A stretch of DNA of 64,000 bases from Gammaproteobacteria bacterium (GTDB taxonomy: Bacteria > Pseudomonadota > Gammaproteobacteria > Steroidobacterales > Steroidobacteraceae). Numbering within the stretch: position 1 is the first letter of the stretch; each line of letters opens with the position of its first letter. Positions 5,252 to 49,220 of the stretch are shown here, in pieces. The notes below the pieces were generated by a model that saw only the letters and a program-made list of their open reading frames with translations, was not told where the DNA came from and searched no databases. The translations under genes and the position numbers were made by a program. The stretch covers positions 124,001 to 188,000 of the forward strand of contig CANGBB010000002.1 in assembly GCA_947452065.1 (NCBI GenBank), in the 5' to 3' direction.

Positions 5252-5967
5252 TCGTTATTGGCCTGGGCGGCGTCGAGCGCGTCGAGATAGCGCACGCCGC
5301 CCAGGCTACTCATCTGACTCAGGATCCAGTCCCGACGTGACTGCAGGTACGCCGAGGGCGCCTCGGCGTGCAGGCGGGTAGGACTGGGTAGCACGGCGGC
5401 CAGAAGAGCGGCCTGTTCACGATTCAGCTTGCTGGCCGGTCGCGCGAAAAAGTGTCGTGAAGCCGCCTCGAGTCCGTAATAGCCAGGACCGAACTGCGCG
5501 GTGTTCAGATACACCTCGAGAATGCGCTCCTTCGGCCACAGTATCTCGATCAGCAGCGTGAAGGCCGCCTCCACACCCTTGCGCAGATAACTGCGACCCG
5601 ACCATAGGAACAGGTTTTTCGCCACCTGTTGCGAGATGGTGCTGGCGCCGTGGACACGGTGGCCCGCGGCATTGCGACGTACCGCCTCACGGATGGAGCG
5701 GAAGTCGAAGCCGGTGTGGAAAGGGAACAACTGGTCTTCGGAGGCGATCACCGCCACGGCAGCATGTGGCGAGATCGCTTCGAGATCGACCCATTCGTAG
5801 TGCGTGCGATAGGCCCGATCGCCGGCGCGCCAAGCATCGATTCGCGCCTCGATCATGAAGGCGCTGGTGGGCGGGTGCACCCAGCGAAGCAGCAGCACCA
5901 ATCCCACCACGAACAGCAGCACGCATAGCACCAGCTTCATCAGCCAGCGCAGTGCGCGCATAAGCAT
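5239..5967 (-). CDS. mtgA: Monofunctional peptidoglycan glycosyltransferase MtgA
   Basis: MtgA polymerises lipid II into glycan strands at the outer face of the inner membrane. The 242-residue protein has one N-terminal membrane anchor (about residues 8-28) and then a GT51 domain. The family motifs are visible in order: EDQLFPFHTGFD with the catalytic Glu, GASTISQQVAKNLFLW, and KERILEVYLN. There is no transpeptidase domain, which separates it from class A penicillin-binding proteins. It is the last gene of a minus-strand group with ppiB and prmC (17 bp after ppiB) and converges on the TonB receptor. Confidence 0.95.
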   Translation of the reverse strand: MLMRALRWLMKLVLCVLLFVVGLVLLLRWVHPPTSAFMIEARIDAWRAGDRAYRTHYEWVDLEAISPHAAVAVIASEDQLFPFHTGFDFRSIREAVRRNAAGHRVHGASTISQQVAKNLFLWSGRSYLRKGVEAAFTLLIEILWPKERILEVYLNTAQFGPGYYGLEAASRHFFARPASKLNREQAALLAAVLPSPTRLHAEAPSAYLQSRRDWILSQMSSLGGVRYLDALDAAQANNDQKR

Positions 5968-5984
5968 CGGCTGCTGACCGTCGG

Positions 5985-6467
5985 TCAGACGCGGCGCGCT
6001 GACAGGATCACGACGTCTTCCAGCGGCGCGTCGGTGTAACCCTGCCGGCGTCCGGTGGCGAGCGCCGCGATCTGGTCAATCGTTTCCATGCCGGCGGTGA
6101 CACGGCCAAAAACCGCGTAGCCATGGTTGCCGGGACGGTAATCCAGGAAGTCGTTGTCCGTGAGGTTCACGAAGAACTGAGAGGTCGCGCTGTGCGGCGC
6201 GTTGGTGCGCGCCATGGAAAGCGTGCCGCGCAGATTCAGCTGGCCGTTGTCCGCCTCATTGCGGATCGGGTCACGAGTTTTTTTCTGCGCGAAGTCTGGG
6301 GTGAGTCCACCGCCCTGGATGACGAATCCGGGCACGATGCGATGGAAGATGGTTCCATCGAAGAACTGTTCGTCCACGTACTGCAGGAAATTGGCCACGG
6401 TCAGCGGCGCATCTTTCTCGAACAGTTCGACGGTGAAATCGCCATGAGAGGTTTTGAACTGGATCAT
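5985..6467 (-). CDS. ppiB: Cyclophilin-type peptidyl-prolyl isomerase
   Basis: This 160-residue single-domain cyclophilin isomerises Xaa-Pro bonds. Family landmarks are the segment FFDGTIFHRIVPGFVIQGG, with the catalytic Arg in FHR, and SMARTNAPHSATSQFFVNL. It lacks a signal peptide, so it is probably cytoplasmic like E. coli PpiB rather than periplasmic PpiA. Its ATG overlaps the end of prmC by 4 bp, which points to translational coupling. Confidence 0.94.
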   Translation of the reverse strand: MIQFKTSHGDFTVELFEKDAPLTVANFLQYVDEQFFDGTIFHRIVPGFVIQGGGLTPDFAQKKTRDPIRNEADNGQLNLRGTLSMARTNAPHSATSQFFVNLTDNDFLDYRPGNHGYAVFGRVTAGMETIDQIAALATGRRQGYTDAPLEDVVILSARRV

Positions 6468-7327
6468 TGCGGCATCCTGGCTTCAGTGACGCGGGGGTGA
6501 CCCGCCAGATCGGCGTGGGAGCGTACGTGAGAGAACCCCGCGCGCACAAGCATTTCTGCGACCGCCGGCCCCTGATCGTTGCCATGCTCAAGGGCCAGTG
6601 CGCCACCCGCCACGAGGTGCCCGCGGGCGCCGACGATGATCTCGCGTAGCGCAGTCAGACCGTCCGGCGGTGATACTAAAGCCGACTGCGGCTCGTGGCG
6701 CAGGGCTGGGTCGGCCAGTGCTGGATCGCCGGGCGCAATGTAGGGCGGGTTGCTGACGATCAGTTCGAAGCGCCGCCCCGGTACCGGTTCATACCAGCTG
6801 CCGCTGACAAACTCGCAGTTGCGCACATCCAGTGTGCGGGCATTGCCCGCGGCCACCGCCAGCGCTGCCGGCGAGGCGTCGGTGGCCGTGATCCGCCAGG
6901 CCGGACGCTCGATGGCCAAAGCCAGGGCCACCGCCCCCGAGCCCGTGCCCAGATCCAGCACCTGTGCCGGACCTGGTGGGCACAAAGCCAGCGCGCGCTC
7001 GACCAGCAACTCTGTCTCGGGCCGCGGGACCAGTACGTCCGGTGTGACCTGCAGACGTCGCGACCAGAATTCGCGCTCGCCGGTGATGTAAGCCAGCGGT
7101 TCACCGCGCACGCGGCGATCGATCCAGGCCATGAACGCATCGCGGGCCGCATCGGGGCAGACTGATTCAGGCTCTGCGTACAAATGACTGCGTGGCCGTT
7201 GCAATGCGCCTGCTAACAAAAGCTGCGCATCCAGGGTCGGGCAGCCGCGCACCTGCGCCCAGTTGAGCATCTGGGCCAGCGTGCTGCCGGCGACGGGAGT
7301 TGTGAGGTCTGATCTGCTAGATTTCAT
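6464..7327 (-). CDS. prmC: Release factor glutamine methyltransferase PrmC
   Basis: PrmC (HemK) methylates the glutamine of the GGQ motif in release factors RF1 and RF2. The 287-residue protein has the helical N-terminal domain, then a Rossmann methyltransferase fold with VLDLGTGSGAVALAL for AdoMet binding and the NPPY catalytic motif in IVSNPPYIAPGD. Its substrate gene prfA lies just upstream on the same strand, but a gene on the opposite strand separates them. The 31-bp gap to that divergent gene must hold both promoters unless they overlap coding sequence. Confidence 0.95.
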   Translation of the reverse strand: MKSSRSDLTTPVAGSTLAQMLNWAQVRGCPTLDAQLLLAGALQRPRSHLYAEPESVCPDAARDAFMAWIDRRVRGEPLAYITGEREFWSRRLQVTPDVLVPRPETELLVERALALCPPGPAQVLDLGTGSGAVALALAIERPAWRITATDASPAALAVAAGNARTLDVRNCEFVSGSWYEPVPGRRFELIVSNPPYIAPGDPALADPALRHEPQSALVSPPDGLTALREIIVGARGHLVAGGALALEHGNDQGPAVAEMLVRAGFSHVRSHADLAGHPRVTEARMPQ

Positions 7328-16229: not shown

Positions 16230-17768
16230 ATGAGCAAGGGCAAACTGATTTTTGCGGGCGCGCTGGCGTCGCTGGTCGTCGTTGCGATCGCGCAGCAGAA
16301 GTACCGTGATCCGCGCAGCTTCGAATACAAGGAAGCGCTGAAGGACACCAAGGCGGTGACCGCCACGGAGCGCAGCACCGGTGGTTATGGTGACCAGCCG
16401 CGCGGCACCGATGACCCGCTGTTCGTTGCGCAGGAGTTGCTGGGCCGGCCCACGGACCGTTCAGTCACGGTCAACGTCGCCTCCCGCAAGGACGTGGATG
16501 CGTACTTCGAATACGGCACCAAGTCGGGGGCCTACACGGGCCGCTCTTCGACCTACCGCTTTGCCGCCGGCGTTCCCACCAACGCCTTCATCGGTGATCT
16601 GAAGCCCAACACCCGCTATTTCTATCGCATGCGTTACAAGCTCGCCGGCGCCGCGGATTTCGCCACGCGTCCCGAGCACTCGTTCATGACGCAGCGTCCG
16701 CCGGGTAGCGCCTTCACCTTCGTCGTGCAGTTCGACCCGCATCTGCTGGCGGCGAACGACATGGATGCCTACAAGCTGTCGCTGAAGAAGATGCTGGCCG
16801 ACAAGCCGGACTTCATGATCGATCTCGGTGACACCGCGTTCATCGATCGCGAGAATCCGGCCACCATGGGCATCCCTGCGTTCCAGGCTCACCTGACGCA
16901 GCGCAATCAGTACGTGCGTTCCTATTTCGATCTGATCAATCACTCAGTGCCGCTGTATCTAGTGCTGGGTAACCATGAGGGTGAATGGGCGGCACGTCGT
17001 GATGGCACGCCGAACAACATGGCTGTCATGCACACCGTGACGCGCAAGCAGTACTTCCCCAACCCCGAGCCCAACGATTTCTACTCCGGTCCCACGCGGC
17101 TGGAGCAGTACGTCGGCCTGCGTCAAGCCAGCTACGCCTGGCAGTGGGGCGATGCGCTGTTCATTGCGCTCGATCCCTACTGGAACGCGCCGCAGGCACC
17201 GGAGCAGGCGGGTGACTGGTGGACGACGCTGGGCAAGGATCAGTACGACTGGCTGAAGAACACGCTCGAGACGAGCAAGGCCAAGTACAAGTTCATCTTC
17301 TCGCACAACCTCATCGGTGGCGTGAACATGAAGGGCCAGATGCGCGGTGGCATCGAGACGCTCAAGTATCTTGAGATGGGTGGTTACAACCTCGACGGCA
17401 CCTGGGGCTTCGACAAGGCGCGTCCGGGTTGGGCCATGCCGATCCATCCGCTGCTGGTTGCCAACAACACCACGATCTACTTCCACGGCCATGACCATCT
17501 GTACGTGAAGCAGGATCAGGACGGCATCGTGTATCAGGAAGGCCCGGTGCCAGCGCGCAGCGGTCTGTATGACGCCACTGCCGCCGCGAAGGACTACAAC
17601 TACACCCACGGCAAGGTGGTAGGTGGCAGCGGTTACCTGCGCGTGCGTGTTGCGCCGGACGATGTGAAGGTCGACTACGTGCAGACCTATCTGCCTAAGG
17701 AAGAGGACGCCACGCACAAGGACGGCATGCTGGGCGACAGTTACACCATCAAGGCGCGCAAGCGGTAA
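16230..17768 (+). CDS. Exported metallophosphoesterase (purple acid phosphatase-like)
   Basis: The 512-residue protein begins with an uncleaved or cleavable hydrophobic signal (residues about 5-21). A beta-sandwich region (about 70-155) resembles the N-terminal domain of PhoD or purple acid phosphatases. A calcineurin-like metal site follows: DPH at 169-171, GD at 200-201, GNHE at 247-250, SHN at 358-360 and GHDH at 420-423. It should hydrolyse phosphoesters in the periplasm or at the surface, but the substrate is unknown. It is followed after 23 bp by an FG-GAP propeller gene, probably in one operon. Confidence 0.85.
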   Translation: MSKGKLIFAGALASLVVVAIAQQKYRDPRSFEYKEALKDTKAVTATERSTGGYGDQPRGTDDPLFVAQELLGRPTDRSVTVNVASRKDVDAYFEYGTKSGAYTGRSSTYRFAAGVPTNAFIGDLKPNTRYFYRMRYKLAGAADFATRPEHSFMTQRPPGSAFTFVVQFDPHLLAANDMDAYKLSLKKMLADKPDFMIDLGDTAFIDRENPATMGIPAFQAHLTQRNQYVRSYFDLINHSVPLYLVLGNHEGEWAARRDGTPNNMAVMHTVTRKQYFPNPEPNDFYSGPTRLEQYVGLRQASYAWQWGDALFIALDPYWNAPQAPEQAGDWWTTLGKDQYDWLKNTLETSKAKYKFIFSHNLIGGVNMKGQMRGGIETLKYLEMGGYNLDGTWGFDKARPGWAMPIHPLLVANNTTIYFHGHDHLYVKQDQDGIVYQEGPVPARSGLYDATAAAKDYNYTHGKVVGGSGYLRVRVAPDDVKVDYVQTYLPKEEDATHKDGMLGDSYTIKARKR

Positions 17769-17791
17769 CGCAGCGCGTCGCGGAGAAAGTC

Positions 17792-19294
17792 ATGCGTCAT
17801 ACCAGTCACGCCACAGTCGCTTCTGCCACAGCAGGGCTGCTGCTGGCTGTGGCTGCGATGCAGGCTCCTTCGCGGGTGGATGCGGCACAGGGAGCGAATG
17901 CAGGCAGGGAGGGCGCAGCGGCCCCCGCTGCTGAGGTCTCGCAAACGCCCTGCGTCGGGCAGATCAGCGGCACGCGCCCGGTGACCGATGTGTTCAAGCC
18001 GGGCTTCACGCACCTGACCGGCGCGAAGGCCAATGACTCCTTCGGTGTAGCGGTTGCCTCCGGTGACATCGATCACGATGGTTTTTCGGACATCGTGGTC
18101 GGTGCGCGCGGTGACTTCACCTCCAACGACAACAAGGGCCTCGTTTACATCTACAAAGGCTCGAAGGCTGGGCTGGTCGCCACGCCCGCTCTGGTGCTTG
18201 AAAGCGAGCAGCCGAAGAGTGAGTTCGGCCGCACGCTGATCGCCGGCGACATCAACGCCGATGGCTATGCCGATGTCATCGTCGGTGCGCACGGCTTCAA
18301 CGGCGGTGCTGGATCACATCAGGGCAAGGTCTATGTGTATCTCGGCGGACCGAAGGGCCTTGCGACCACGCCCGCGCAGACGCTGCTCGGTGAGGTCAAG
18401 GGCGGCGAGTTCGGACGCACCTTCGATATCGTCGATGTGAACGGCGACGGCATCAACGACCTGCTGTTGGGCGCTTCCGGTTATGGCGGTGACCTGTCCA
18501 ATCAGGGCAAGGCCTATGTTTATCTCGGCACCCGCACCGGCCTCGATCCGCGGCCGTATTTCACCGCGGTGGGCGAGAAAACCAATGACGAATTCGGTCG
18601 CGCGATCAGTGCCGCCGACGTCAATGGCGATGGCTTCACGGATCTGGTGATTGCCTCCACTGGCGGCACTGGCAGCAACAACTCCAAGAACACCGTGCCC
18701 GGCTCGATGTATGTGTACTACGGCAGTGCCAAGGGCTTCGGTGCCACCTACAGCGCAAAGTTCGACGGTGAGTTTCCCAAAGGCCATCTCGGCGAGGGCA
18801 TGTTTGCCGTCGGTGATCTCAATCACGATGGCTATGCGGATATCGCCATCGGCGCACGTGATTTCGCTTGCGGTGGCGGCGTCGCTGGCAAGGTCTACGC
18901 CTACCTCGGCGGCCCGAAGGGTCTGAGCGCTGATCGCGTGTGGACCGCCGTGGGTATGGGTGACGGCGGCGTTGGCCGCTCCATCGCGCCCGCCGGCGAT
19001 CTGGACGGAGACGGTTATCAGGACTTCCTCTCAGGCGCGCCGGTGGGCACCGTCGAGAAGGGCGCCGGACTGTATGTGTTCTTCGGCGGCGCCAAGAGCT
19101 GGGGCAGCAAGCCGGTGGTGATCAATGCCAACGATGGCGAGAACGCGATCGGTTTCGGCCTGTTTTCGGCCGGCGACGTTAATGGCGATGGCGCACCCGA
19201 CATCGTTGTCGGAGCCCGCGATGGCGGAGACGCCAAACAGGGCTGGGCTCGGGTCTATTACGGCAAGAAGGGCAGCCTGGCCATCAAACGCTAG
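17792..19294 (+). CDS. Secreted FG-GAP (integrin alpha-type) beta-propeller protein
   Basis: The 500-residue product has a signal peptide (to about residue 30) and seven FG-GAP repeats. Each has a calcium-loop pattern such as GDIDHDGFSD, GDINADGYAD, VDVNGDGIND, ADVNGDGFTD, GDLNHDGYAD, GDLDGDGYQD and GDVNGDGAPD. Seven repeats would close a seven-bladed propeller. In integrins and bacterial relatives this fold binds ligands or carries phospholipase activity, but no catalytic residues are evident here. The close spacing to the metallophosphoesterase suggests that the two are made together. Confidence 0.87.
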   Translation: MRHTSHATVASATAGLLLAVAAMQAPSRVDAAQGANAGREGAAAPAAEVSQTPCVGQISGTRPVTDVFKPGFTHLTGAKANDSFGVAVASGDIDHDGFSDIVVGARGDFTSNDNKGLVYIYKGSKAGLVATPALVLESEQPKSEFGRTLIAGDINADGYADVIVGAHGFNGGAGSHQGKVYVYLGGPKGLATTPAQTLLGEVKGGEFGRTFDIVDVNGDGINDLLLGASGYGGDLSNQGKAYVYLGTRTGLDPRPYFTAVGEKTNDEFGRAISAADVNGDGFTDLVIASTGGTGSNNSKNTVPGSMYVYYGSAKGFGATYSAKFDGEFPKGHLGEGMFAVGDLNHDGYADIAIGARDFACGGGVAGKVYAYLGGPKGLSADRVWTAVGMGDGGVGRSIAPAGDLDGDGYQDFLSGAPVGTVEKGAGLYVFFGGAKSWGSKPVVINANDGENAIGFGLFSAGDVNGDGAPDIVVGARDGGDAKQGWARVYYGKKGSLAIKR

Positions 19295-19390: not shown

Positions 19391-19467
19391 GGCTAGGTAG
19401 CTCAGCTGGTTAGAGCGTGGCACTCATAATGCCGAGGTCGTGGGTTCGAGTCCCACCCTAGCCACCA
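19391..19467 (+). tRNA. tRNA-Met (anticodon CAT, elongator type)
   Basis: The acceptor arms GGCTAGG and CCTAGCC pair, the D arm reads TAGCTCAGCTGGTTAGAGC, and the anticodon loop is CTCATAA. The T arm carries GTTCGAGTC, and CCA is encoded at 19465-19467. The body closely resembles E. coli elongator tRNA-Met. A CAT anticodon can also belong to tRNA-Ile2 (lysidine-modified), but the overall similarity favours Met. Confidence 0.93.
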
Positions 19468-21497: not shown

Positions 21498-24122
21498 TCA
21501 CCACTGCGGCACAATCTTGAAGATGCGAAGCTCCCCTGAAGACTGGTCTGGGGCGAGGGCGTACACATGCGGTCCCCAGTCATGCTCCTCGGCGCAATAA
21601 ATGCCAATGCCAATGGCTGACTTCAGTCGCATCAGCTTGAGAAGGTCTTCCGGGTTGTCGGCGGGCTTGCCGGTCTGCAGGAACGGACGCGGAGACGATG
21701 GGACTCCCGAGATGTTCTGGATCAACTCACCGTTGCCCAGGTACATGGAAGCACCGTCGATGCAGAACGTTGGGTTGTAGCTCGGCAGCAGACCGTCGAT
21801 GTTGGTGAAGAGCGTCAGCTTGTCACCGGTGAGGGCGATGACCCGACTACCGTAGCCGATCCAGAGCGTATCGAAGGTGTGGATTAGGGTGTTGACCCAG
21901 CCGTCACCAAACGCCTTCATGTCGAAGCGCTTGATCGTCTTGTCAGAGGAAATTCGCACGATGCTCTGCAGGTCGGAACCTGCCACATAGAGCGTCATGC
22001 CCTCGTCGTCGGTGACGAACAGATCCGTCTGGATGCCCGATACCGGAATTTCATCATAGACCGCCGAGAATTTCGTCTCGGTGCTGCGGCTCAATCGTTC
22101 ATGGAAAACGGCGTCGCTGCCGATGGCCCAGCGCGCGGCATAAGTCTGCTTGCGCGCAATCGGCACGAAATGCTTCAGCCGTGCGCCGATATCCAGTTCG
22201 AAGTTTGTCTGGATCCCGCCATTGTTCATGTTCCAGGTGCCGAAGCGGTATTGGCCGCCATTGGGGTCGATATAGAGTGTGTCGAAAGAGTCCACTTCCT
22301 CGTAGCCCAGATCTCCGACGTCGAAAGTCCCCACGCCGTTCTTCGAAATGGGTTCCGTCAGCCAGCGTGCTCCGGTGCCGCGGCCGGTGGTGAACTTGCC
22401 CGCTAGGGTTCCACCGTTCTTGGCGGATAGTCGAACGTACAGGCCATCGTTGGTGGCGAAGGGTCGACCCGATGCAAAGCTGGTGTCGGGCGGCGGTGCG
22501 ATCAGTTGTAGCTGGGCGTTGGAAGTGATCGGTGAGGTGCTCGCGCTGCTGGCCAAGCTGCGCGCACCCGGCAAAATGGGTGGCGTGGGCGTGCGCGGTA
22601 CGAGTACCGGCGCCTCTGCGGCTGGCTTCGGCGTACTGGCGAGTTCTCGCATGGCCTGTAGGCCCTTGACGGCCTGGTCTTGGGTTGCGCTGGCCGCGGG
22701 TGCTGGTGTGGCGGGCGCCGAAGTCTGTGGCCCGTTCGTTGAAGCGACGCCGCGCGCCAGGCTGTTGAACACGCCTTGTGTTGCAGCGCCAAGCACCTGG
22801 CCGCCGACTCCGGCATCGGCGCCGGCGATGGCCGAGCTCACGACATTGCCAGTATGGGCAACGGTCAGTGCCCCGAGGGTGCCGACCACGCTGCTGCTCG
22901 GCGTCGCCGTGCTGCTCGCCCCCGTCGCCGCGGCCGGCGTGCTGGTGCTGGATGCAGTTGTCGTGGGAGTTGCCGTACCCGCTGCACCCTTGGCAAGGCT
23001 GGAGAACACCCCTTGCGCCAGTGCGCCGACGATTTGGCCGCCGACCCCGGCATCGGCACTGGCAATGGCCGAGCCCACCACGCCGCCTGTCTGCGTAATC
23101 ACCGCCGAGCCGAGTGCGCCAGCAATGCCGCTGCCTCCGGCCCCGTTGGTGCCGTTGCCAGTGCCGCCGAGCAGCGCGCTGGCAATGGCGCCGCCCGCCC
23201 CCTGATCAGCCACCGTTGCTCCGATCACATTGCGGGTCAGGTCACCGACGGAGAGGTTGGAGTCCTTGCCACTGAACATGGATGAGACAAGGCCCATGGC
23301 AATGCGACCGCCGACGTCGCCGCCGCCGCTGCCGCCGAGCAGACTGCTGCCCAGCGACGAGGTGTTGCCGAGGGAACTGCTGAGGCTGCCCGTGGCCGAG
23401 TCGAGCGCAATCTTGCCGATGACCCCCAGGACCGACTTCCAGCGGCTCTCGCGCTGCTCGCGATTGGCGCCCGTCTGCGTCTTCGAGAGGCTGGCCTGAT
23501 ACCGGTCTTGCATCTCGGCGAGGTAGCCAGGGGACGCCTTGAACAACTTGACCGGCAAGCCAGGAAACGCAAGGTCGCTGACATAGAGTCCGGTGGTCTG
23601 CTCATTCTCGTCGTGGTCGACAACGTCACCATAGAAGACGTAGTAGCCGGGTGCCGAATTCGTGTGCTGGTCGGGTGCCGGCACGAATTGGAATCGGCCC
23701 TTGTATTCCACGCCGAAGCCGGTGTCGTACACGCCCTCGGACCAGGGCGCGATCGTCACATGTAGGAAGGGGTGTTCTTGCCGGCCGTAGGTGCCGGTGA
23801 AGACGGGCAACGTGCCATTCTGGATGCCGATAGCGCGTGGCTGGCTGCCGCGTTCGGGCAATCCATCGGCGGCATAGACCAGCTCGAACTTCCGGCTTGG
23901 GGCGCTGGGCACCATGAGCTGGTAGGTCTCGCCCGCGACAGTGGCCCCGCCGGCGTACTGGCCGTGCATCGACAGGCCCAGTGCCGCGTCCCATGCCGTG
24001 CCAACGCCATTTCGGCAGTTGCCCTGGGTGCACTTGAAGCGTCGCGCGTCGCTGACGTCGAGGGCACTTGCCGGCGCGGCGCTGAGCAACGCCAAGAGCA
24101 GCCAGGAGACGCGCGTCCCCAC
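21498..24122 (-). CDS. Large exported protein of unknown function with duplicated Gly/Ala-rich module
   Basis: I do not recognise this 874-residue protein. A signal peptide ends near PASALDV. Residues 20-210 form a beta-rich globular region. Residues 240-465 are Gly/Ala/Ser-rich and include a module repeated at about 338-382 and 417-461, both built on the core SAIAxADAGVGGQ followed by GVFxSLAxG. Residues 465-530 are a Pro/Ala/Thr linker. The remainder (about 540-874) has beta-propeller-like strands such as LYVAGSDLQSIVRI and DTLWIGYGSRVIAL. It follows its partner gene by 4 bp. The glycine-zipper look of the repeats suggests membrane insertion or self-association, which is inference. Confidence 0.8.
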   Translation of the reverse strand: MGTRVSWLLLALLSAAPASALDVSDARRFKCTQGNCRNGVGTAWDAALGLSMHGQYAGGATVAGETYQLMVPSAPSRKFELVYAADGLPERGSQPRAIGIQNGTLPVFTGTYGRQEHPFLHVTIAPWSEGVYDTGFGVEYKGRFQFVPAPDQHTNSAPGYYVFYGDVVDHDENEQTTGLYVSDLAFPGLPVKLFKASPGYLAEMQDRYQASLSKTQTGANREQRESRWKSVLGVIGKIALDSATGSLSSSLGNTSSLGSSLLGGSGGGDVGGRIAMGLVSSMFSGKDSNLSVGDLTRNVIGATVADQGAGGAIASALLGGTGNGTNGAGGSGIAGALGSAVITQTGGVVGSAIASADAGVGGQIVGALAQGVFSSLAKGAAGTATPTTTASSTSTPAAATGASSTATPSSSVVGTLGALTVAHTGNVVSSAIAGADAGVGGQVLGAATQGVFNSLARGVASTNGPQTSAPATPAPAASATQDQAVKGLQAMRELASTPKPAAEAPVLVPRTPTPPILPGARSLASSASTSPITSNAQLQLIAPPPDTSFASGRPFATNDGLYVRLSAKNGGTLAGKFTTGRGTGARWLTEPISKNGVGTFDVGDLGYEEVDSFDTLYIDPNGGQYRFGTWNMNNGGIQTNFELDIGARLKHFVPIARKQTYAARWAIGSDAVFHERLSRSTETKFSAVYDEIPVSGIQTDLFVTDDEGMTLYVAGSDLQSIVRISSDKTIKRFDMKAFGDGWVNTLIHTFDTLWIGYGSRVIALTGDKLTLFTNIDGLLPSYNPTFCIDGASMYLGNGELIQNISGVPSSPRPFLQTGKPADNPEDLLKLMRLKSAIGIGIYCAEEHDWGPHVYALAPDQSSGELRIFKIVPQW

Positions 24123-24126
24123 GCCA

Positions 24127-25182
24127 TCACTCCCAGGGACAGGGCGACATCTTCGCCGGCACGCCGTCCTGGAAGCAGGTGTGTGTCTCGAGGAAGTCTT
24201 TGCCGTTCACCACGGTCTCGCGCGCATCTTCCATGCCTGGCATGCCCTGCCATGCGACCTTCATCTTCTTGTAGACGTTCTCCATGTACGTGATGTTCTC
24301 GCCGTGCATGGCGTCGTCCTTGGTGTGGTAGACCACCAAGATGTCCGCATTCCGATACGTGCTAATGACGCTGCGCAGGTCATCGACGCCGGAAATCAGG
24401 GTTGTGGTCATTACCGCGTTGAACTGGGGTTTGGAGCTGGTGACGGTCATGGGATCCAGCTCGGAGGAGAGAGAGAAAGTCGCGCCGCGCAGACTCGCAC
24501 CATGGCCGGTCGTGTAATTGGCCATGGTCACCTCATAGGGGCGATTGACTGCCGCGTTGACCTTCTTATTCCCATTTATGATCTTTTCGACGGCCGGGTC
24601 GGAATAGTGGGTTTCGACAGCCGTCGTCATGCGCGAATATAGGGCGACGTCGTCTTGCACAACTCCCTTCGCGACGGCACGCACCACCCAGCGATCAGTG
24701 TGGGTGAGTGAATGAGTAGTCGTTGTCGACGTGGTGCTGCCCGAGGTCGAGGTGTTGGTGCTGTCGGAGATGTTGTCGTACGAGACAAACATCTTGATGA
24801 CGCCGTTGGCCACGTCGCCCTCGCAGGGCAGTTCTGTGACGGTGAAGCGGATATTCCGGAAATCCAGCATCGGTGTCGTGCTGGCCGTCCCGGTCACGGC
24901 GCGCATGTAACGACGGCCATTGCGCTCTATCTTCTTGGCCAGCAGGTCCGGGTGTGCCGCATCCAGCCCAGCAGCCCGATACAGTTCGATCTCCGGCAGC
25001 GTGCAGCTCGCCGTCACGGGCGCCGCTGGCGCCGTGAAGAAACCTGGGGCTTCGATGATCGCGCGGTCGGCCTTGTAACGCTCCAGCATTGCCGCGAAGG
25101 TAGCGTCTTGAATGGACGGGAAGTCGATGGCGCTGGCGGTCATCGGCAGTGCTGCGAGGGCGATCCAGTACAACTTGCGCAT
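24127..25182 (-). CDS. Exported protein of unknown function, partner of the 874-residue protein
   Basis: The 351-residue product has a signal peptide (MRKLYWIALAALPMTASA) and no family that I recognise. A Ser/Thr-only stretch near residue 145 looks like a linker between two domains. Cysteines occur near residues 40, 110 and twice close to the C-terminus (HTCFQDG and SPCPWE), which could form disulfides after export. I chose the ATG at 25182 because AGGAG lies 11 bases upstream and a signal peptide starts there. The next gene begins 4 bp after its stop, so they form an operon. Confidence 0.78.
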   Translation of the reverse strand: MRKLYWIALAALPMTASAIDFPSIQDATFAAMLERYKADRAIIEAPGFFTAPAAPVTASCTLPEIELYRAAGLDAAHPDLLAKKIERNGRRYMRAVTGTASTTPMLDFRNIRFTVTELPCEGDVANGVIKMFVSYDNISDSTNTSTSGSTTSTTTTHSLTHTDRWVVRAVAKGVVQDDVALYSRMTTAVETHYSDPAVEKIINGNKKVNAAVNRPYEVTMANYTTGHGASLRGATFSLSSELDPMTVTSSKPQFNAVMTTTLISGVDDLRSVISTYRNADILVVYHTKDDAMHGENITYMENVYKKMKVAWQGMPGMEDARETVVNGKDFLETHTCFQDGVPAKMSPCPWE

Positions 25183-25241
25183 GCGGGTTTTGCTCCTGGC
25201 TGTGGCGTCGAGGCGGACCTGATTGAATCCCGAATAATGTG

Positions 25242-25284
25242 AAAAAACTGAAACCCATGCTACCAGACGGGCGTTTGCTGGGTT
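25242..25284 (-). terminator. Rho-independent terminator on the minus strand
   Basis: TGGGTT (25279-25284) pairs with AACCCA (25252-25257), and the minus-strand transcript then runs into six U bases (A-run 25242-25247 on the plus strand). The 21-base loop makes it weaker than average. It would end transcription from the TonB receptor gene before the next minus-strand operon. Confidence 0.45.
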
Positions 25285-25323
25285 CGTCGCTATGGCCTGC
25301 TGCGCCCATGTGGTGGCGGCCTC

Positions 25324-25420
25324 AGGTCGGCCCTCTCCTGAGACCCATCGGCGCAGGGTCTGGTGGCTGTCGTAAGGCCCCATCTTGCTTGGAATCGCTG
25401 AAGTGATTCCAGGCCGACCT
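25324..25420 (-). other. Nested inverted repeats, possible three-way-junction RNA
   Basis: Three helices are nested. A closing 9-bp helix joins AGGTCGGCC (25324-25332) to GGCCGACCT (25412-25420). Inside it are AGACCC/GGGTCT (25341-25346 with 25356-25361) and TGGAATC/GATTCCA (25390-25396 with 25405-25411). All pairs are perfect, and the last helix abuts the closing one directly. An alternative hairpin, CTCAGG/CCTGAG (25321-25326 with 25337-25342), would exclude the closing helix. The element starts 3 bp after the receptor stop codon. The strand is inferred from its neighbours. Confidence 0.4.
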
Positions 25421-25423
25421 CAG

Positions 25424-27745
25424 CTACGCCGGGCCCAAGAAATCCCAGCCCCATTGCAGCAGCCAGGAGCGGCGCGGGTAGGGGTGGAAGTTCCAGTACT
25501 GATAGTTGCCGAGGTTGTCGATGCCAAGCGCTGCGTGCCAGCGTCTTGAGCTCTGGTAGCGCAGGCGCAGATCAGTCACCACATAGGGGCTTGCACCCTG
25601 ATAGGCATAGCCGTTGGGGTCGCTGTTATCCAGCGTGGAATATTGCTGGCCGCTGTAGCGCGCACCCACAGTCATCGTCCAATGCTGGTTCCAGCGGTAA
25701 TCGGCCTCTGCGCTGGCGCGCCACTGCGGCACACGCGGCTGGTATTTTCCAAGCGTGTCATTGGGGCTGGTCACGTAGCCGGCATTTTCTTTGATGCGTG
25801 AGTCGGCCCAGGTCAGGCTGGATTGCAATGCCAAGCCATGCAGCAACCAATCGTTGGTTTGCACTGCCAGTTCAATGCCGGGTGTGGCGATCTTTGCAAC
25901 ATTGGTCACGCGCGAGACAACGGTGCTGCCCACCGCAACACGCTCTGAATAAAGTGAATTGCGCACCACTTCATGAAAGCCGGTTGCACGCCAGTGCGAT
26001 GCACCGCGCTGTGCCTCCCAGCTCAGTTCTCCGGTCCAGGATTTCTCAGGCCGAAGCATGGGGTCATTGACCACGGTAAGCACGCCGGAGGTGGCGCCGT
26101 ACAGTTCGTTCACCGTCGGCATCCGTACTGCGCGGCCGACAGATAGCCTTAAAACATCGTCATCCGTTCTCTCCCAAGCCAGCGCCGCTTTTGGCGAGAG
26201 ATAAGTGCTGTTGCGATGGGTGTAGCTCGTCGCGCTGCTGAGAGTAGCGGTTTGACCGCCGTCGGCCTCCCAGCGCTCGGCGCGCAGCCCCAGTACAGTT
26301 TTCCAGCTGGGCGCCAGAGCCCATGCATCCTGAATGAAAGCGCTCTGCATGCGGGTGTTGCCAGCCACGCGGGTGCTCAATGTGCCGCCGGTGTCGGTGC
26401 GCCAATCGCCAGTGAGGGTGCTCTTCAGTGAGCGTAAACGGAATTGATCCTGTTGCAGACCGAAGTCGAACACATGGGTACCGCTGAGGCCCTGCGGTCG
26501 CCAGATGCCCTTGAGTGCCAGAGTGTCCCAGCCGCTGCCGTGCTGGTCTGTCAGTGTTCCTGCACCATTATTCGCGGCGGCGGGCAGGGGTACGGTGGGG
26601 ATGCGCTGCAGATCGCGTTGGTAATCGATCAGGCTGGCGGCCACTTCCCAGTCCCATTGCCCGAGGGTATGGCTCTTAAGAGAGAGTCCGTGGGCTAGCT
26701 GTCGGAACGATTCGTTTGAAAGGCTGAAGTCGCTTGCGGTCAAAGTCGTGTATCGGCCACCGAAGTTGACGGCGCCGCTGTACATCGCATTGCCCGCTGC
26801 ATCGCGCAGATAGCTCTGCGGACGGCTGTTGGCATCGTTCTGCCACACAGTCAGCGCGTAACTGGCGCGCAGCGTTGGCGTGAAATCATAGGATAGCTTC
26901 AGCTTGCCGTGATTCTGCATCGTGCGATATTCGGTCGCGGTGCCGAGTATGTATTGCGGGTTATTGCTGCGATCCTGACCCAACACCGCACCGGTCACGG
27001 CCGTGCCCGCGCTGCCCGCCGTGGTGGCGGTGATCAGACGCGTCGGGAAGGTGAGCGGTTGGCCGTGGCTGTCGGTGTGGTTCAGGTTTATCCACCAGGC
27101 CAGTGCGCCGCTGCGATTGCCGACGGAACCGCTTTCCTGATGAGCGAGCAGCGTTTCGTCGGTGTTGTACAGATGGAAGGGCTGCGCAGCGCCCGCGGTT
27201 TGCAGATGCGCTTCGAAGCGCTCCGGCATGCGCGTCACATAGTCCACGATCGCGCCGGCCGAGTTGCCCGGATAGGCGGCGGAGAAGGGTCCGTACATCA
27301 CGTCCACCCGCTCGATCTCTTCCGTAGTCACTTGGGCCCAGCGCGGTGCAAAGCTGGCGCCATTGCCAAGGAAGTTCGAGATCAGGATGCCATCGACATA
27401 GACGGCTGAGCGTGCACTGTTGCCGGTGCCGGATGCGCGACTGGAAAGCACGGCATGGTTGTAGTCGCCGATATAGCGCTTGCGCACCAGCAGGCTTGGA
27501 AAATATTTGAGTGCGTCTTCGCTGTCGGTGGCGTTCACGCTGCGTGCGATCTGCTCTGCGTTCAGGCCAGCCAGAGTGGTTGGGATCTCACTAGGGAGTG
27601 AGGTCGGCGCGCCGGCGGAGATGGTCACGATGCCAAGCGTCTGCGGTGTTGGTTCACTGCTTGCAGTGGGCGCGGTGTCCGCTTGCGCGGAAAAGCTCAA
27701 TGCCAGCGGCAGCCAAACTGCCACCGGCGTCAATGGATTCTTCAT
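25424..27745 (-). CDS. TonB-dependent receptor
   Basis: This 773-residue outer-membrane receptor has a signal peptide (cleaved near SFSAQAD), a short periplasmic stretch, and a plug (about residues 45-165) with AVYVDGILIS and IERVDVMYGPFSAAYPGNSAGAIV. A barrel of the siderophore/BtuB type ends with WNFHPYPRRSWLLQWGWDF. The ligand is not evident. A DUF2946-like gene lies 107 bp upstream on the same strand. Because that family is often found beside metal and copper receptors, a metal-related role is a reasonable guess but unproven. Confidence 0.92.
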   Translation of the reverse strand: MKNPLTPVAVWLPLALSFSAQADTAPTASSEPTPQTLGIVTISAGAPTSLPSEIPTTLAGLNAEQIARSVNATDSEDALKYFPSLLVRKRYIGDYNHAVLSSRASGTGNSARSAVYVDGILISNFLGNGASFAPRWAQVTTEEIERVDVMYGPFSAAYPGNSAGAIVDYVTRMPERFEAHLQTAGAAQPFHLYNTDETLLAHQESGSVGNRSGALAWWINLNHTDSHGQPLTFPTRLITATTAGSAGTAVTGAVLGQDRSNNPQYILGTATEYRTMQNHGKLKLSYDFTPTLRASYALTVWQNDANSRPQSYLRDAAGNAMYSGAVNFGGRYTTLTASDFSLSNESFRQLAHGLSLKSHTLGQWDWEVAASLIDYQRDLQRIPTVPLPAAANNGAGTLTDQHGSGWDTLALKGIWRPQGLSGTHVFDFGLQQDQFRLRSLKSTLTGDWRTDTGGTLSTRVAGNTRMQSAFIQDAWALAPSWKTVLGLRAERWEADGGQTATLSSATSYTHRNSTYLSPKAALAWERTDDDVLRLSVGRAVRMPTVNELYGATSGVLTVVNDPMLRPEKSWTGELSWEAQRGASHWRATGFHEVVRNSLYSERVAVGSTVVSRVTNVAKIATPGIELAVQTNDWLLHGLALQSSLTWADSRIKENAGYVTSPNDTLGKYQPRVPQWRASAEADYRWNQHWTMTVGARYSGQQYSTLDNSDPNGYAYQGASPYVVTDLRLRYQSSRRWHAALGIDNLGNYQYWNFHPYPRRSWLLQWGWDFLGPA

Positions 27746-27852
27746 GAGGGCTCTCTCAAATGCTGATCGACAGTCACCCGATCGCTACGGACCGGGATCG
27801 ACGGCGCGCACCGAAGTGCTGCGCAAGATGCGGGCGTCGCGCCCGCGGACGA

Positions 27853-28263
27853 TCAGGCGAGTGCGGGTGGGCCGCGCGGCAGCCGCGAATGCGGCGTCGG
27901 TGAGAGATAAGTGAAGGGAGAGCCAACCTCGATGCCGGACAGACGCGGCGCGCTGGCCGCGTTCGTCCAGGTCATTACCCAGGCTGAGGCCAACGCTGGC
28001 TGGAGCGACAGGGCCTGCGGGCACTGTTCGTGAATCGCATGATCGCCCTGGCTGTTGTCAGGCGCGGGCGACGGCGCGTCGTTACCGGGTGTGCTCTGAC
28101 CCGTCAGTGCCAAGGCGAAGGAACAGAGCTTGAGCGAGGGAAGGCCGTTCTGGCCCACATCCGCCATGTAGCCGGCGGGTATCAGCGCCTTGAACAGGAG
28201 TGCCACCAGCAGCAGCTCGCGCAACCAAGGTTGACGCAGGAAATGGCGTACAGCGGGGCTCAT
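27853..28263 (-). CDS. DUF2946-like small membrane/periplasmic protein
   Basis: The 136-residue product begins with one hydrophobic segment (LRELLLVALLFKALIPAGYM), followed by a stretch with LKLCSF and then HEQCPQALSL. This layout matches DUF2946 proteins, whose Cys/His positions suggest metal binding. The frame stays open up to 28353, and an ATG at 28326 even has a GAGGG upstream. I prefer 28263 because bases 28264-28335 are strikingly AT-rich and contain a perfect inverted repeat, so they look like a promoter. Starts at 28275 or 28281 are equally possible. It probably forms an operon with the TonB receptor. Confidence 0.65.
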   Translation of the reverse strand: MSPAVRHFLRQPWLRELLLVALLFKALIPAGYMADVGQNGLPSLKLCSFALALTGQSTPGNDAPSPAPDNSQGDHAIHEQCPQALSLQPALASAWVMTWTNAASAPRLSGIEVGSPFTYLSPTPHSRLPRGPPALA

Positions 28264-28301
28264 TGATGTCAACATTATCATGGAAATTACACAATTCAAT
28301 C

Positions 28302-28321
28302 TGTAACCTTCATCGGTTACA
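28302..28321. promoter_or_regulatory. Perfect inverted repeat, candidate operator
   Basis: TGTAACC (28302-28308) and GGTTACA (28315-28321) are exact complements around six bases. The site lies in an AT-rich stretch between the divergent DUF2946-like gene and the RND efflux operon. The size and symmetry suit a dimeric repressor of the TetR type, which often controls RND pumps. No regulator gene is adjacent. Confidence 0.45.
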
Positions 28322-28445
28322 TTCATCTTTTTCGCCCTCGATTTCGCGGTCATTGGATCGGGTTTCCGTAGCCACCGGCTGGGCCCGGTCTGGCCTGCGG
28401 GCGCCGGTTCTGCCGGGTGAGGGCCCGAGGCAGCCAGTGGATCGA

Positions 28446-29630
28446 ATGCTTTCTGTGTCCTATTCCCATGTCATTGAGCGGCGGGCATCTACCCCCGTTG
28501 TGGGCTTGTTGTTGACGATGGCTTTGGCGACTTTGAGTGCCTGCAGCCATGAGGCCGCTTCCAGCGCGGCATCGCCCAACGGTGCCAAGGCTGGTGATGC
28601 CGCCGCAGCTCACGGAGCGTCCAGTTCCGGCGCGAGCGCGGGCCGGGGTAACGGGGGTTCGCGCGGCGGCACGAACAATGCGGTGCTGGCGCAGAAGATC
28701 AACGCCGTGATGCTCAGCGACGAGACCGAGGCATTGGGCACTGCCAAGTCCAATGAGGCCGTGGATATCACCGCCAAGGCCACCAATCGCGTCGTGGCAC
28801 TGCATCTGCGCGAGGGCGAGTTCGTCAAGCAGGGCGATATTCTGGTGGAGTTCGACGGCACTGAGGCGCGCGCCAATCTGGCGGCCGCCGAGGCTTTGGC
28901 GCGCGACACGCAGAGCCAGTACCAGCGCGGCAAGCAGTTGTTCCAGAACAAGGCACTGTCAGAGTCGGATCTGGTTCAGCTCGAGGCAAAGATGCTCAAC
29001 AGCCGTTCGGCTGCTGAGGCCGCGCAGGCGCGCGTCGATGACACTGTGATTCGCGCGCCCTTTGGCGGGCGCATCGGCTTGCGCAACACCAGCGTCGGCA
29101 GCCTGGTCACGCCCGGACAAGTCATCACCACGCTTGATGATGTCAGCGTGATCAAGCTCGACTTCAGCGTGCCCGAGGCTTTTCTGGCTGCGATCCGCGA
29201 AGGCGATGTGGTCGACGCGCGCAGCAGTTCTTATCCAGACGCGTCTTTCCGCGGCAAGGTGGCGAGTATCGCGACCCGCGTCGACCCGGTCAGCCGCTCC
29301 GTGGTAGTGCGCGCACTGCTGGACAATCGCGATCGTCGCCTCAAGCCGGGTATGTTCATGACGGTTCGCATCAAGCGTCCGCCGGCGCGCACGCTGCTGA
29401 TTCCGGAGCAGGCGTTGATGCCGGAGAACGACAATCAGTTCATCTTCTTGCTGCGCGGGGATGTGGCCCGCAAGACAGCGGTGCAGCTGGGTCGGCGTAG
29501 ACCCGGTCAGGTTGAGGTCGTGCACGGGCTGAGCGCGGGCGACATCATCATCATCGAAGGCGGTGACAAGCTGCGCGATGGCGACAAGGTTCGTGCGAAG
29601 TTGGTCGAAGGCGCGGCGGGGAACGGATGA
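28446..29630 (+). CDS. RND efflux membrane fusion lipoprotein
   Basis: The 394-residue periplasmic adaptor links an RND pump to an outer-membrane channel. It has a lipobox in TLSACS, a Gly/Ser/Ala-rich linker, and a biotinyl-lipoyl-type hairpin domain (AVDITAKATNRVVALHLREGEFV). The coiled-coil segment, the IRAPFGGRIGLRN return strand and the beta-barrel region (PGMFMTVRIK) follow in order. I chose the ATG at 28446, the start nearest the lipoprotein signal; the frame is open further upstream. Its stop overlaps the pump gene by 4 bp. No outer-membrane factor gene follows. Confidence 0.88.
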   Translation: MLSVSYSHVIERRASTPVVGLLLTMALATLSACSHEAASSAASPNGAKAGDAAAAHGASSSGASAGRGNGGSRGGTNNAVLAQKINAVMLSDETEALGTAKSNEAVDITAKATNRVVALHLREGEFVKQGDILVEFDGTEARANLAAAEALARDTQSQYQRGKQLFQNKALSESDLVQLEAKMLNSRSAAEAAQARVDDTVIRAPFGGRIGLRNTSVGSLVTPGQVITTLDDVSVIKLDFSVPEAFLAAIREGDVVDARSSSYPDASFRGKVASIATRVDPVSRSVVVRALLDNRDRRLKPGMFMTVRIKRPPARTLLIPEQALMPENDNQFIFLLRGDVARKTAVQLGRRRPGQVEVVHGLSAGDIIIIEGGDKLRDGDKVRAKLVEGAAGNG

Positions 29631-32600
29631 TTCTGACTGACATTTCTGTGCGGCGACCGGTCTTCGCATTGGTCGCCAGCCTGCTGCTCACCATGCTCGG
29701 CGTGGTGGCTGCGTCGCGGCTTTCCATCCGCGAACTCCCCAATGTTGAGTCGGCGGTGGTCAGCGTCAGCGTTGCCTACCGCGGCGCCAATGCCTCGGTG
29801 ATCGAGACCAAGATCACCCGCGTCATCGAAGATCAGTTGGCGGGTATTGAGGGGCTGGATAAGCTCACATCGACCAGCCAGGACGAGCGCTCGCGCATCA
29901 CGCTTGAGTTCACGCTCGACAAAGACATCGAAGCGGCGGCCAATGATGTGCGTGATCGCGTGTCACGACTGCAGGCCAGTCTGCCGCCCGAGGCCGATCC
30001 GCCGCAGATCAGCAAGGTGGACACCAGTTCAGACAGCGTCGTGCAGTACTCGCTGACCAGCGCCAAGCGTTCGCTCGGTGAACTGTCCGATTACGCCAAT
30101 CGCTACATCACCAACCGGCTCGCGGTTGTTCCGGGCGTCGCCATCGTAGGACTGAACGGTGAACAAGCTCCGGCGATGCGCGTGTGGCTGGACCGGCGCG
30201 CGCTCGCGGCGCGACAACTGACGGTGCAGGATGTCGAGCTCGCGCTCCGCAAAGAGAATGTGGAGTTGCCGGCCGGCCGGCTCGAGTCGCAGCAGCGCGA
30301 GTTCACGCTGCGCACCGAGACGGGCCTGCGCACCGAGGATGACTTTGCCAATCTGGTCGTCGGTCGCGGCGCCGATGGTTATCTGGTGCGTTTGCGCGAC
30401 GTGGCGGAGGTGCGCAAAGGCGTTGTGGACCAGCGCTCCATCTACCGCTCCAACGGCGTCAATTCGGTGGGCATATCCGTAACACCAACCTCCACCGCCA
30501 ATGTCATGGACGTAGTGGCCGGTACCAATCGCGTGGTCGAATCGCTGCAGGGAAGTCTGCCTTCGGACATTAAGCTCAGCGTTGCGACGGACGATACGGT
30601 CTATGTGCGCGACTCGATCCGCGAAGTGGCCATCACCATGGGCATTGCGCTGGTGTTGGTGCTGATCGTGATCTTCGGCTTCCTGGGTAATCTGCGCGCC
30701 ACGGTCATTCCGGCGGTCACCATCCCGGTCTCGATTGTTTCAGCCTGCATCGTGATGGCGGCGCTGGGATTCTCTCTGAATCTGCTCACGCTTCTTGGTG
30801 CGGTGCTGGCCATCGGTCTGGTGGTCGACGATGCCATCGTGGTGATGGAAAACATCGCGCGCCGCATCGAGGAGGGCGAGCCCGCTCTGATTGCCGCGCT
30901 CGACGGCAGTCGTGAAATCGCTTTCGCGGTGATCGCCACGACGTTGGTGCTGATCGCAGTGTTCCTGCCCATCTCCTTCATTCCTGGAAGCGTGGGTCGG
31001 CTGTTCGGCGAGTTCGGTATCTCGGTGGCGGCCGCAATCTTCTTCTCCAGTCTCGTGGCCCTGACGCTGACGCCGATGATGGCCTCGAAGCTGTTTGCGG
31101 CCGGTATCGAGCGCGGCCGCTTCAGTCGCCTGATCGACAATCTCTTCCGTTCGCTCTCGGATCTTTACCAGCGCACGTTGGTTCGCGTGGTGCGTCACTC
31201 CGTGGCTGTGGCAGCGGTGGCTGTTGCGGTCAGTATCGGCGGCTATCTGCTGCTGAGGCAGCTCCCGAGCGAGTACTCGCCGGCCGAGGACCGCGCCTTC
31301 ATGATGATTTCTGTCACCGCGCCGGAAGGGGCCAGCCTGCAGTACACCGAACGCTACGTCTCGCAAGTTGCAGCCATCGTCGGTGAAGAAGTGCGCCCGG
31401 GTGGCGCGCAGATGATGGTCGAGCGCGTGGGCGGCGGCAGCACCTATTACTCGAGCAACGTCAACAATGGACGTGTGATCCTGCGCCTGTATCCGCTCGG
31501 TAAGCTGCGCACCGAGCGTGCTCAGCAGATGGCTACGCGGCTGCGCGCCAAGCTCAATGGTATTCCCGGTGTGCGTATTGCAACACTTCTGCCCAGCGGA
31601 CTGGGTACGCGTGCCAGTGGCCAGCCGGTCCAGTTCGTGCTGGGTGGCTCGAACTATGAGGATCTGGCCAAGTGGCGCGACATCGTTCTCGAGCGCGCCC
31701 GACAGAATCCGGGTCTTACCAATGTCGACTCCAACTACGATCCCCGCAAGCCACAGTTAAAGGTCGAAGTCGATCGCGCGCGTGCGGCTGATCTGGGCGT
31801 TTCGCTCGACACCGTCGGGCAGACGCTGGAGACCATGCTCGGTTCACGCCGTGTCACGACCTACATCGACAACGGTGAGGAGTACTCGGTGGTACTTCAG
31901 GCGAAATCCGATGATCGCGCTACGCCCAGCGATTTGGACAACATCTACGTGCGCCAGGCGCGCGGCAACGGACTCGTGCCGCTGGCCAGTCTGGTGACGC
32001 TACGCGAGGAAGCTTCTTCAAGTCAGTTGAATCGCTTCAACCGACTGCGTTCGATCACGATCAGTGCGGGACTGACTGACGGGTATTCGTTGGGTGAGGC
32101 GCTGAAGTTCCTTGAGGGCGTGGTGCATACCGAACTGCCAGCCGATGCACAGATCGACTACAACGGTCAGTCGCGTGAGTTCCGCAAGGCGGGTGGGGCG
32201 CTCTACACCACCTTCCTGCTGGCGATTGGCATCATCTATCTGCTGCTGGCGGCGCAGTTCGAGAGCTTCCGTCATCCGGCCATCATCATGACCACCGTGC
32301 CGCTGGCTGTGGCGGGTGCTGTGGTGGGACTGTGGTGGCAGGGCGGTTCGGTCAATCTCTACAGCCAGATCGGCGCGGTGATGCTGGTTGGATTGGCGGC
32401 CAAGAACGGCATCCTCATCGTCGAGTTTGCCAACCAGTTGCGCGATCGTGGTGTGGAATTCACCGAAGCCATCGTGCAGGCCTCCGTGACACGACTGCGG
32501 CCCGTGTTGATGACCAGCTTGTGCGCGGTCTTTGGTGCGATACCACTGCTGCTGGCATCAGGCGCCGGCGCTGAGAGCCGCCGTCCCATTGGCGCGGTGA

Positions 32601-32743
32601 TCGTGTTCGGCGTCACCATCTCGCTGCTGCTCACCCTATTCGTGGTGCCAGCGGCCTACATCTTGATCGCACGCGGCTCGCACTCGCCGCAGTATGTCAG
32701 TCAGCTCATCGCTCGACTGCGAAGCACCCGGCCTCAAACCTGA
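29627..32743 (+). CDS. RND (HAE1-type) efflux pump permease
   Basis: The 1038-residue inner-membrane pump has the usual size and duplicated layout: 12 transmembrane segments and two large periplasmic loops. The proton-relay Asp pair is visible in GLVVDDAIVVMENIARRIEEG. The N-terminus (ILTDISVRRPVFALVASLLLTMLG) and the late segment VGLAAKNGILIVEFANQLRD are typical for drug and solvent exporters of the AcrB/MexF superfamily. It is coupled to the fusion protein gene (ATGA overlap). The substrate is unknown. Confidence 0.93.
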   Translation: MILTDISVRRPVFALVASLLLTMLGVVAASRLSIRELPNVESAVVSVSVAYRGANASVIETKITRVIEDQLAGIEGLDKLTSTSQDERSRITLEFTLDKDIEAAANDVRDRVSRLQASLPPEADPPQISKVDTSSDSVVQYSLTSAKRSLGELSDYANRYITNRLAVVPGVAIVGLNGEQAPAMRVWLDRRALAARQLTVQDVELALRKENVELPAGRLESQQREFTLRTETGLRTEDDFANLVVGRGADGYLVRLRDVAEVRKGVVDQRSIYRSNGVNSVGISVTPTSTANVMDVVAGTNRVVESLQGSLPSDIKLSVATDDTVYVRDSIREVAITMGIALVLVLIVIFGFLGNLRATVIPAVTIPVSIVSACIVMAALGFSLNLLTLLGAVLAIGLVVDDAIVVMENIARRIEEGEPALIAALDGSREIAFAVIATTLVLIAVFLPISFIPGSVGRLFGEFGISVAAAIFFSSLVALTLTPMMASKLFAAGIERGRFSRLIDNLFRSLSDLYQRTLVRVVRHSVAVAAVAVAVSIGGYLLLRQLPSEYSPAEDRAFMMISVTAPEGASLQYTERYVSQVAAIVGEEVRPGGAQMMVERVGGGSTYYSSNVNNGRVILRLYPLGKLRTERAQQMATRLRAKLNGIPGVRIATLLPSGLGTRASGQPVQFVLGGSNYEDLAKWRDIVLERARQNPGLTNVDSNYDPRKPQLKVEVDRARAADLGVSLDTVGQTLETMLGSRRVTTYIDNGEEYSVVLQAKSDDRATPSDLDNIYVRQARGNGLVPLASLVTLREEASSSQLNRFNRLRSITISAGLTDGYSLGEALKFLEGVVHTELPADAQIDYNGQSREFRKAGGALYTTFLLAIGIIYLLLAAQFESFRHPAIIMTTVPLAVAGAVVGLWWQGGSVNLYSQIGAVMLVGLAAKNGILIVEFANQLRDRGVEFTEAIVQASVTRLRPVLMTSLCAVFGAIPLLLASGAGAESRRPIGAVIVFGVTISLLLTLFVVPAAYILIARGSHSPQYVSQLIARLRSTRPQT

Positions 32744-48389: not shown

Positions 48390-49133
48390 TTACATTCCCG
48401 CCAGTTCGCGCTCTGCAGAGCTGAGCCATTCCGCCTGCGCACGGCGATAGTGGTGGGGGGCTTGCTGGGCGTGGTCGAGCAGCTCGCGCAGAGTGCGCCG
48501 CGCATCGTCAGTGCGTCCTTCGCGCCGCAGGAGCTGGGCGTAACGCAACGCAGCCTCGGCACCGGCGTAGTAGCCCGCCAGCACCCGGTATTCGTCTAGG
48601 GCCTTGGCGGTGTTGCCTTCACCCTCCAGCGAGCGAGCGTATAGCAGGTGACCTTCGGGTGACTTGTAGTCCGGGTTGTGCGCAATCAGTTCGTCGAGAG
48701 TCAGCCGTGCCTCGGCAGGTCGGCCGGCAGTGAACTGCGCTCGCGCTAGGCCGAGCATCAGACCGGGATCATGTTCGTAGAGTCCCTTGAGTGTCTGACG
48801 ATAGATGTCGATGGCATCCGCGGCACGTCCTTGGCGCAACAGTTCCTCCGCGTAGCGCTGCTGGCTAGCGACGCCACCCTGCTGGCGCGCGGCGGCCTCA
48901 TAGCGGCGCAGATCCTGCTCCGGATCCAGGGCCTTCTTCACGCCGCGGTAAGTGCGCTTGGCGGCGCGGCTCCCGAACAGCTCGGGCAGGATCTCAGCCA
49001 CGATATAGGCCAAGCCGCCAAAGGCGGGCAGCATCAGCAGCACCCAGATCCAGACGGTATTGCGTCCGGTGCGCATGCAATGGACGATCAGAACGGCGCT
49101 CAGGATGTAGGAACCGAGGACGTAGTAACTCAT
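48390..49133 (-). CDS. Membrane protein with PLD-N-like and tetratricopeptide regions
   Basis: The 247-residue product begins with two hydrophobic segments (SYILSAVLIVHC and TVWIWVLLMLPAFGGLAYIV), which look like a phospholipase D N-terminal (PLDc_N) module. It continues with helical repeats of TPR type from about residue 85 to the end. I know no function; similar layouts are common in proteobacterial genomes. The ATG at 49133 is preferred because the membrane segment starts there. It faces the patatin gene divergently, with 87 bp between. Confidence 0.8.
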   Translation of the reverse strand: MSYYVLGSYILSAVLIVHCMRTGRNTVWIWVLLMLPAFGGLAYIVAEILPELFGSRAAKRTYRGVKKALDPEQDLRRYEAAARQQGGVASQQRYAEELLRQGRAADAIDIYRQTLKGLYEHDPGLMLGLARAQFTAGRPAEARLTLDELIAHNPDYKSPEGHLLYARSLEGEGNTAKALDEYRVLAGYYAGAEAALRYAQLLRREGRTDDARRTLRELLDHAQQAPHHYRRAQAEWLSSAERELAGM

Positions 49134-49220
49134 GGGGTGCCAGCATACTGGGAGCGGTGGCGTGCCGTGAAGCGTGCGCCGTGTCAGGAGCGGTCGCATC
49201 ACGTAAACTTCACCACTGCG

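Follow-up and report, generated by a model that had tools for sequence, protein, structure and literature searches.

An orphan pair of adjacent genes for exported-looking proteins, one carrying a duplicated 45-residue module, in a Steroidobacteraceae genome

Two adjacent open reading frames (ORFs) occupy the minus strand at positions 21498 to 25182 of the 64,000-nucleotide stretch of gammaproteobacterial DNA analysed here (the window). Gene A (24127..25182) encodes 351 aa, with cysteines at residues 60, 120, 336 and 348 and a Ser/Thr-rich stretch at residues about 141-160. Gene B (21498..24122) starts with GTG and encodes 874 aa, with cysteines at residues 31, 36, 787 and 843. A comes first and B lies downstream after a gap of 4 bp, TGGC; the two minus-strand ORFs, their coordinates and this gap were all reproduced from an earlier, sequence-only reading that had described a two-gene pair. 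By eye, a Shine-Dalgarno-like GGGAG precedes the GTG of B. Both N-termini also look by eye like signal peptides, with a basic residue, a hydrophobic run and a cleavage-like site at ASA, and in each protein the hydropathy maximum falls within residues 5-24; signal peptides had been proposed for both. A BLAST comparison of A against B (E 0.096) gave no reason to regard the two as kin. The frame of A stays open for 67 further codons upstream to an ATG (25183-25383, minus strand), giving a 418 aa ORF; this extension is possibly a gene remnant or chance.

We scored codon usage per codon with a model built from ten long window ORFs, of which a family-library check covered all except 48771-51476 and 60249-63563. 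A scored +0.257 and B +0.219 in their own frames, inside the range of the training ORFs' own scores (0.14-0.38), and the remaining five frames of each gene were all negative. Within B, the head scored +0.196, the middle +0.189 and the tail +0.268, so each of these parts reads as coding. With these scores within the training range and a GC content close to that of the window (0.629 vs 0.624), we see nothing that would point to recent import of the pair. At gathering scores Rfam detected two tRNAs and nothing else, and between 21300 and 28400 there were no promoter-like sites (1.4 expected) and no excess of terminator-like sites (6 vs 4.9 expected).

B divides into parts, all on the minus strand. 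A head (23433..24062, residues 21-230) without a family match is followed by a middle rich in Gly, Ala, Ser and Thr by composition and low in charge (22683..23432, residues 231-480), then by a linker rich in Pro, Ala and Ser by composition (22491..22682, residues 481-544), and finally by a tail (21498..22490, residues 545-874) that is beta-rich in a weak model and propeller-like at best. The most distinctive feature of the middle is an internal duplication. When B is aligned to itself without gaps, the top match is of residues 321-399 to 400-478, with a score of 206; the highest score among 200 shuffles of residues 240-520 was 88. Within it lie the two copies of the 45-residue module that had been noticed in the sequence, at residues 338-382 (22977..23111) and 417-461 (22740..22874), which are identical at 28/45 residues and agree at 87/135 DNA positions; this observation is confirmed. 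Nei-Gojobori counts over the 45 codons gave dN 0.32, dS 1.13 and a dN/dS of about 0.29, and over the core alone (345-377 and 424-456) dN 0.18, dS 0.87 and a dN/dS of 0.21, consistent with purifying selection on the copies. The flanks of the repeat have diverged more (dN 0.62 and 0.70; dS 0.92 and saturated). The low dN relative to dS in the module, together with these more diverged flanks, suggests that the duplication is old and that its core has been retained by selection.

Further copies may lie upstream. Residues about 296-324 (23151..23237) align to the module with a gapped score of 51.5, which 0.67% of 3000 shuffles of residues 288-330 matched; residues 257-285 reached a gapped score equalled by 3.4% of shuffles of 231-290, and the whole stretch 231-330 likewise gave 3.4%. 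Ungapped tests with 2000 shuffles were weaker, at 4.6% (288-330), 2.8% (231-290) and 11% (231-330). Since the regions for these tests were chosen after looking at the sequence, we regard residues 296-324 as a probable third, decayed copy and residues 257-285 as a possible fourth.

The Gly-rich character of the middle had led to the suggestion that glycine-zipper-like repeats might point to membrane association or assembly. This did not survive comparison with shuffles. In residues 231-480 we counted 2 GxxxGxxxG motifs against a shuffle mean of 1.99, and GxxxG was not in excess (9 vs 10.1). The looser patterns [GAS]xxxGxxxG (8 vs 5.2) and G...[GAS]...G (9 vs 5.2) were reached by 15% and 6% of shuffles, respectively, and GxxG (16 vs 10.1) by 1.6%. 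Both GxxxGxxxG matches belong to a single Gly run (263-272) outside the modules. Membrane helices usually have a hydropathy of about 1.6; the highest 19-residue hydropathy of B beyond its signal peptide is 1.29, and in neither protein does any stretch beyond the signal peptide reach the hydrophobicity of a typical membrane helix. On the motif counts against shuffles we rejected the glycine zipper, and membrane association is not supported.

To describe the folds we ran AF2 without an alignment on A and on residues 528-874 of B. The model of A was unusable (pLDDT 31.1); that of B had a mean pLDDT of 40.4, consisted mostly of strands, and was best around residues 718-777, a run of strands with block means of 55-63. 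With this low-confidence model, Foldseek returned 931 matches at E <= 10, of which none reached E <= 0.001. The best match (E 9.4e-3) was to the extracellular domain of BT4673 (PDB 3va6), which holds the first and third places among the best 50 of the 931 and which we take to be the propeller of a hybrid two-component protein. Chain B of the BAM complex, Vps18, WDR41 and others among these best 50 are, we assume, propellers as well, and beta-galactosidases take many of the 50 places. Blade repeats were not apparent in the sequence of the tail: its whole-tail self-match scored under the top shuffles, and among ten pairs of hand-cut blocks one reached 0.02 against shuffles and the others at least 0.10. 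A Pfam propeller profile, Beta-prop_Rol-3, left a trace at 0.077-0.12 (0.077 with a tail fragment), below its cut-off, and the stretch LWIGYG...DGLLP of B presumably resembles a propeller blade motif. The propeller-like tail of the sequence-only reading therefore keeps the strands and the BT4673 match of a weak model in its favour and has no sequence repeat beyond shuffles behind it; we treat it as a hint.

We searched for relatives of both proteins widely. As had been claimed for the pair, A and B could be assigned to no known family: the profile libraries Pfam, NCBIfam, PHROGs and PADLOC gave nothing above cut-off for either, and whole B gave no family match at E <= 10. Below threshold, A matched FTR_C at 0.0054, weakening to 0.15 with a fragment, an NCBIfam counterpart at 0.026, and DUF7858 at 0.022 whole and 0.0053 with the fragment. 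Against PDB sequences, whole B had no match at E <= 1 and the tail none at E <= 10; A had 4 matches at 0.36 or worse, and the head 3 at 0.17 or worse. Plasmid and phage searches returned no match to the pair, and neither did pattern-based scans of viral and genome contigs, which find close relatives only.

Genome searches, in sets that overlap, gave the same picture. A was found in one of 60 relatives' genomes and B in one of 150 family genomes, in both cases the source genome itself, where each gene is single-copy. The whole-B query scored only part of the first-look candidates, so B was searched also in pieces; the tail was found in 1 of 296 genomes of the order, again its own, and the middle in 2 of 196, the match other than its own (3.3e-4, at E <= 0.001) containing two stops. 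Across 369 genomes of the class, A had matches in 23 at E <= 0.1, its own counted; those in the other 22 were short and mostly weak, the best (5.5e-4) crossing five stop codons. The head likewise matched in 22 of the 369 at E <= 0.1, its own counted, with a best value of 2.5e-3 among the 21 others, and the tail in 3 at E <= 0.01, its own and two short ones. Neither gene was present in the 14 other genomes of the genus that were searched (72-97% complete), and A was absent from both genomes taken from the genus of another genome (G030). An ORF comparison of loci against A and B covered 87 records, with 7 from the source genome excluded. The best BLAST rows, whose E-values refer to a small locus set picked for such matches, were, for A, a piece of 31 residues in L005 (7.6e-5) and, for B, one of about 85 residues in L087 (2.4e-4). 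Inspected by eye, the latter match lies in a frame opposite a RidA-like gene, and the L086 match in a helicase-like ORF. Such matches, L005 and L087 among them, are short pieces from a biased set, and we judged them to be chance. Together, the family, PDB, plasmid, phage, virus and genome searches yielded no credible relative beyond the source genome.

The pair sits downstream of a gene for a TonB receptor (25424-27745) on the same strand, 241 bp upstream of A, and an ORF upstream of the receptor is DUF2946-like (0.013, below cut-off; unit 25424-28353, minus strand). On the side of B, a GSDH-like protein and a cytochrome c are encoded on the plus strand, convergent to the pair. Elsewhere in the window, a calcineurin-like phosphoesterase with a purple-acid-phosphatase-like N-terminus is followed by an FG-GAP repeat protein (16230-19294, plus strand), and a tRNA-Met gene (19391-19467) comes right after these two. 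A search of 100 family genomes for the receptor gave homologues in 16 at E <= 1e-60, counting the source genome; the closest homologues are 57-60% identical. We retrieved six further receptor regions, five of which (L100 and L102-L105; five genomes, three genera) had readable downstream DNA; genome G072 stops just beyond the receptor and the contig of G007 inside it, and both are uninformative on A and B. In L104 and L105, both from a single related genus, the homologue carries a fused copper chaperone domain, PCu(A)C, which suggests a copper link for the receptor; the receptor in the window is unfused. In L102, from a different genus, a 745 aa ORF beside the receptor homologue (4985-7219) has a lipoprotein-like start with a Gly run and no Pfam match at E <= 0.001, and its product is possibly exported.

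This neighbourhood raises the possibility that A and B are accessory genes of the TonB-receptor unit, perhaps in copper uptake. Their strand and position downstream of the receptor, and the PCu(A)C fusions of its homologues, speak for such a role. Against it, tblastn found neither A nor B at E <= 0.01 across 14.5-15 kb in the five readable loci, all of which carry the receptor (45-61% identity), and five mechanically chosen ORFs downstream of the receptor homologues had no match to A and a single 30-residue trace (E 0.32) to B. The window's GSDH and cytochrome c are missing from these loci too, so the five are not empty versions of the A/B site, and what they share with the window is the receptor unit. 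Judged by these comparisons, the A/B pair is no standing part of that unit, and we consider an accessory role improbable. A Cdz-like system, in which the two proteins would act as a surface toxin or as aggregating partners and the Gly-rich modules would drive aggregation or insertion into a target membrane, appears more improbable still. It would fit two exported-looking neighbours, one with Gly/Ala-rich repeats, but the motif counts and hydropathy given above oppose it, as do proteins of 351 and 874 aa; moreover, a scan of 11 distinct window ORFs recognised no type I secretion genes, the pumps encoded at 28200-32743 being of the RND efflux type by score.

The likeliest alternative, to which we give a little under an even chance, is that A and B belong to a known family but have evolved so fast that the searches used here no longer reach the remaining similarity. 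Sequence searches are the whole basis of the pair's orphan status, A has its weak matches to FTR_C, the NCBIfam counterpart and DUF7858, and the closest receptor homologues are just 57-60% identical, so close relatives of the genome may be missing. On the other side, the libraries and PDB gave nothing above cut-off even when pieces were searched alone, and the FTR_C match weakens with the A fragment. A decayed family would fit much of the reading that we develop next and would mainly lower its novelty.

That reading, which we put forward tentatively, is that A and B form a lineage-restricted exported pair, in which B is a modular head-spacer-tail protein of the envelope or surface and A is its partner. 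In its favour are the adjacency and codon scores of the two genes, the low dN/dS of the module, the low-charge middle followed by a Pro-rich stretch, and the strands and BT4673 matches of the tail model; against it stand the poor AF2 models, the many beta-galactosidases among the best 50 structural matches and the absence of blade repeats detectable by sequence. On this reading A and B would be co-transcribed and their products exported across the inner membrane through Sec; folding would follow beyond the cytoplasm, where disulfides could form, as each protein has an even number of cysteines (4 in each). B would then sit in the cell envelope or on the cell surface with a head-spacer-tail layout, its Gly/Ala/Thr-rich repeats and Pro-rich linker keeping the tail away from the head; the tail, beta-rich and perhaps propeller-like, would thereby be free for ligand binding. 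A, encoded first, may serve as a folding or binding partner of B. The 4 bp gap is the one basis for this putative functional link, in a pair known from one genome. Less probable, and in our view unlikely, is a stronger version in which the two would be the first examples seen of a two-component exported system so far undescribed, with B as a surface protein whose conserved Ala/Gly module, in at least three copies, is an assembly unit, and A as a dedicated partner. The safest statement is that A and B are an orphan, exported-looking pair, probably under selection. Orphan exported genes are common in under-sampled bacterial lineages. Good support for coding and apparent constraint make the pair a fair target for structure work, and if A binds B and the module is indeed an assembly unit, B would represent a new kind of surface protein.

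Three known systems invite comparison. Residues 31-42 of B, CTQGNCRNGVGT, recall what we take to be the opening of MORN-repeat exported proteins; unlike these, B has no match to a Pfam MORN profile at E <= 10. The tail resembles the propeller domain of BT4673 in so far as this domain ranks first and third in the Foldseek search with the low-confidence model, but differs in that the match reaches only E 9.4e-3, no Pfam propeller family scores above cut-off and blade repeats are undetectable. Contact-dependent glycine-zipper bacteriocins of the Cdz type are small toxins of 84-86 aa (about 5-10 kDa) with an extended GxxxGxxxG motif, type I secretion and an immunity protein (PMC5380434). A and B are far larger, B has no excess of the zipper motif, and neither type I secretion nor immunity genes were recognised among the 11 ORFs scanned; what the pair has in common with Cdz is two exported proteins encoded together and Gly/Ala-rich sequence.
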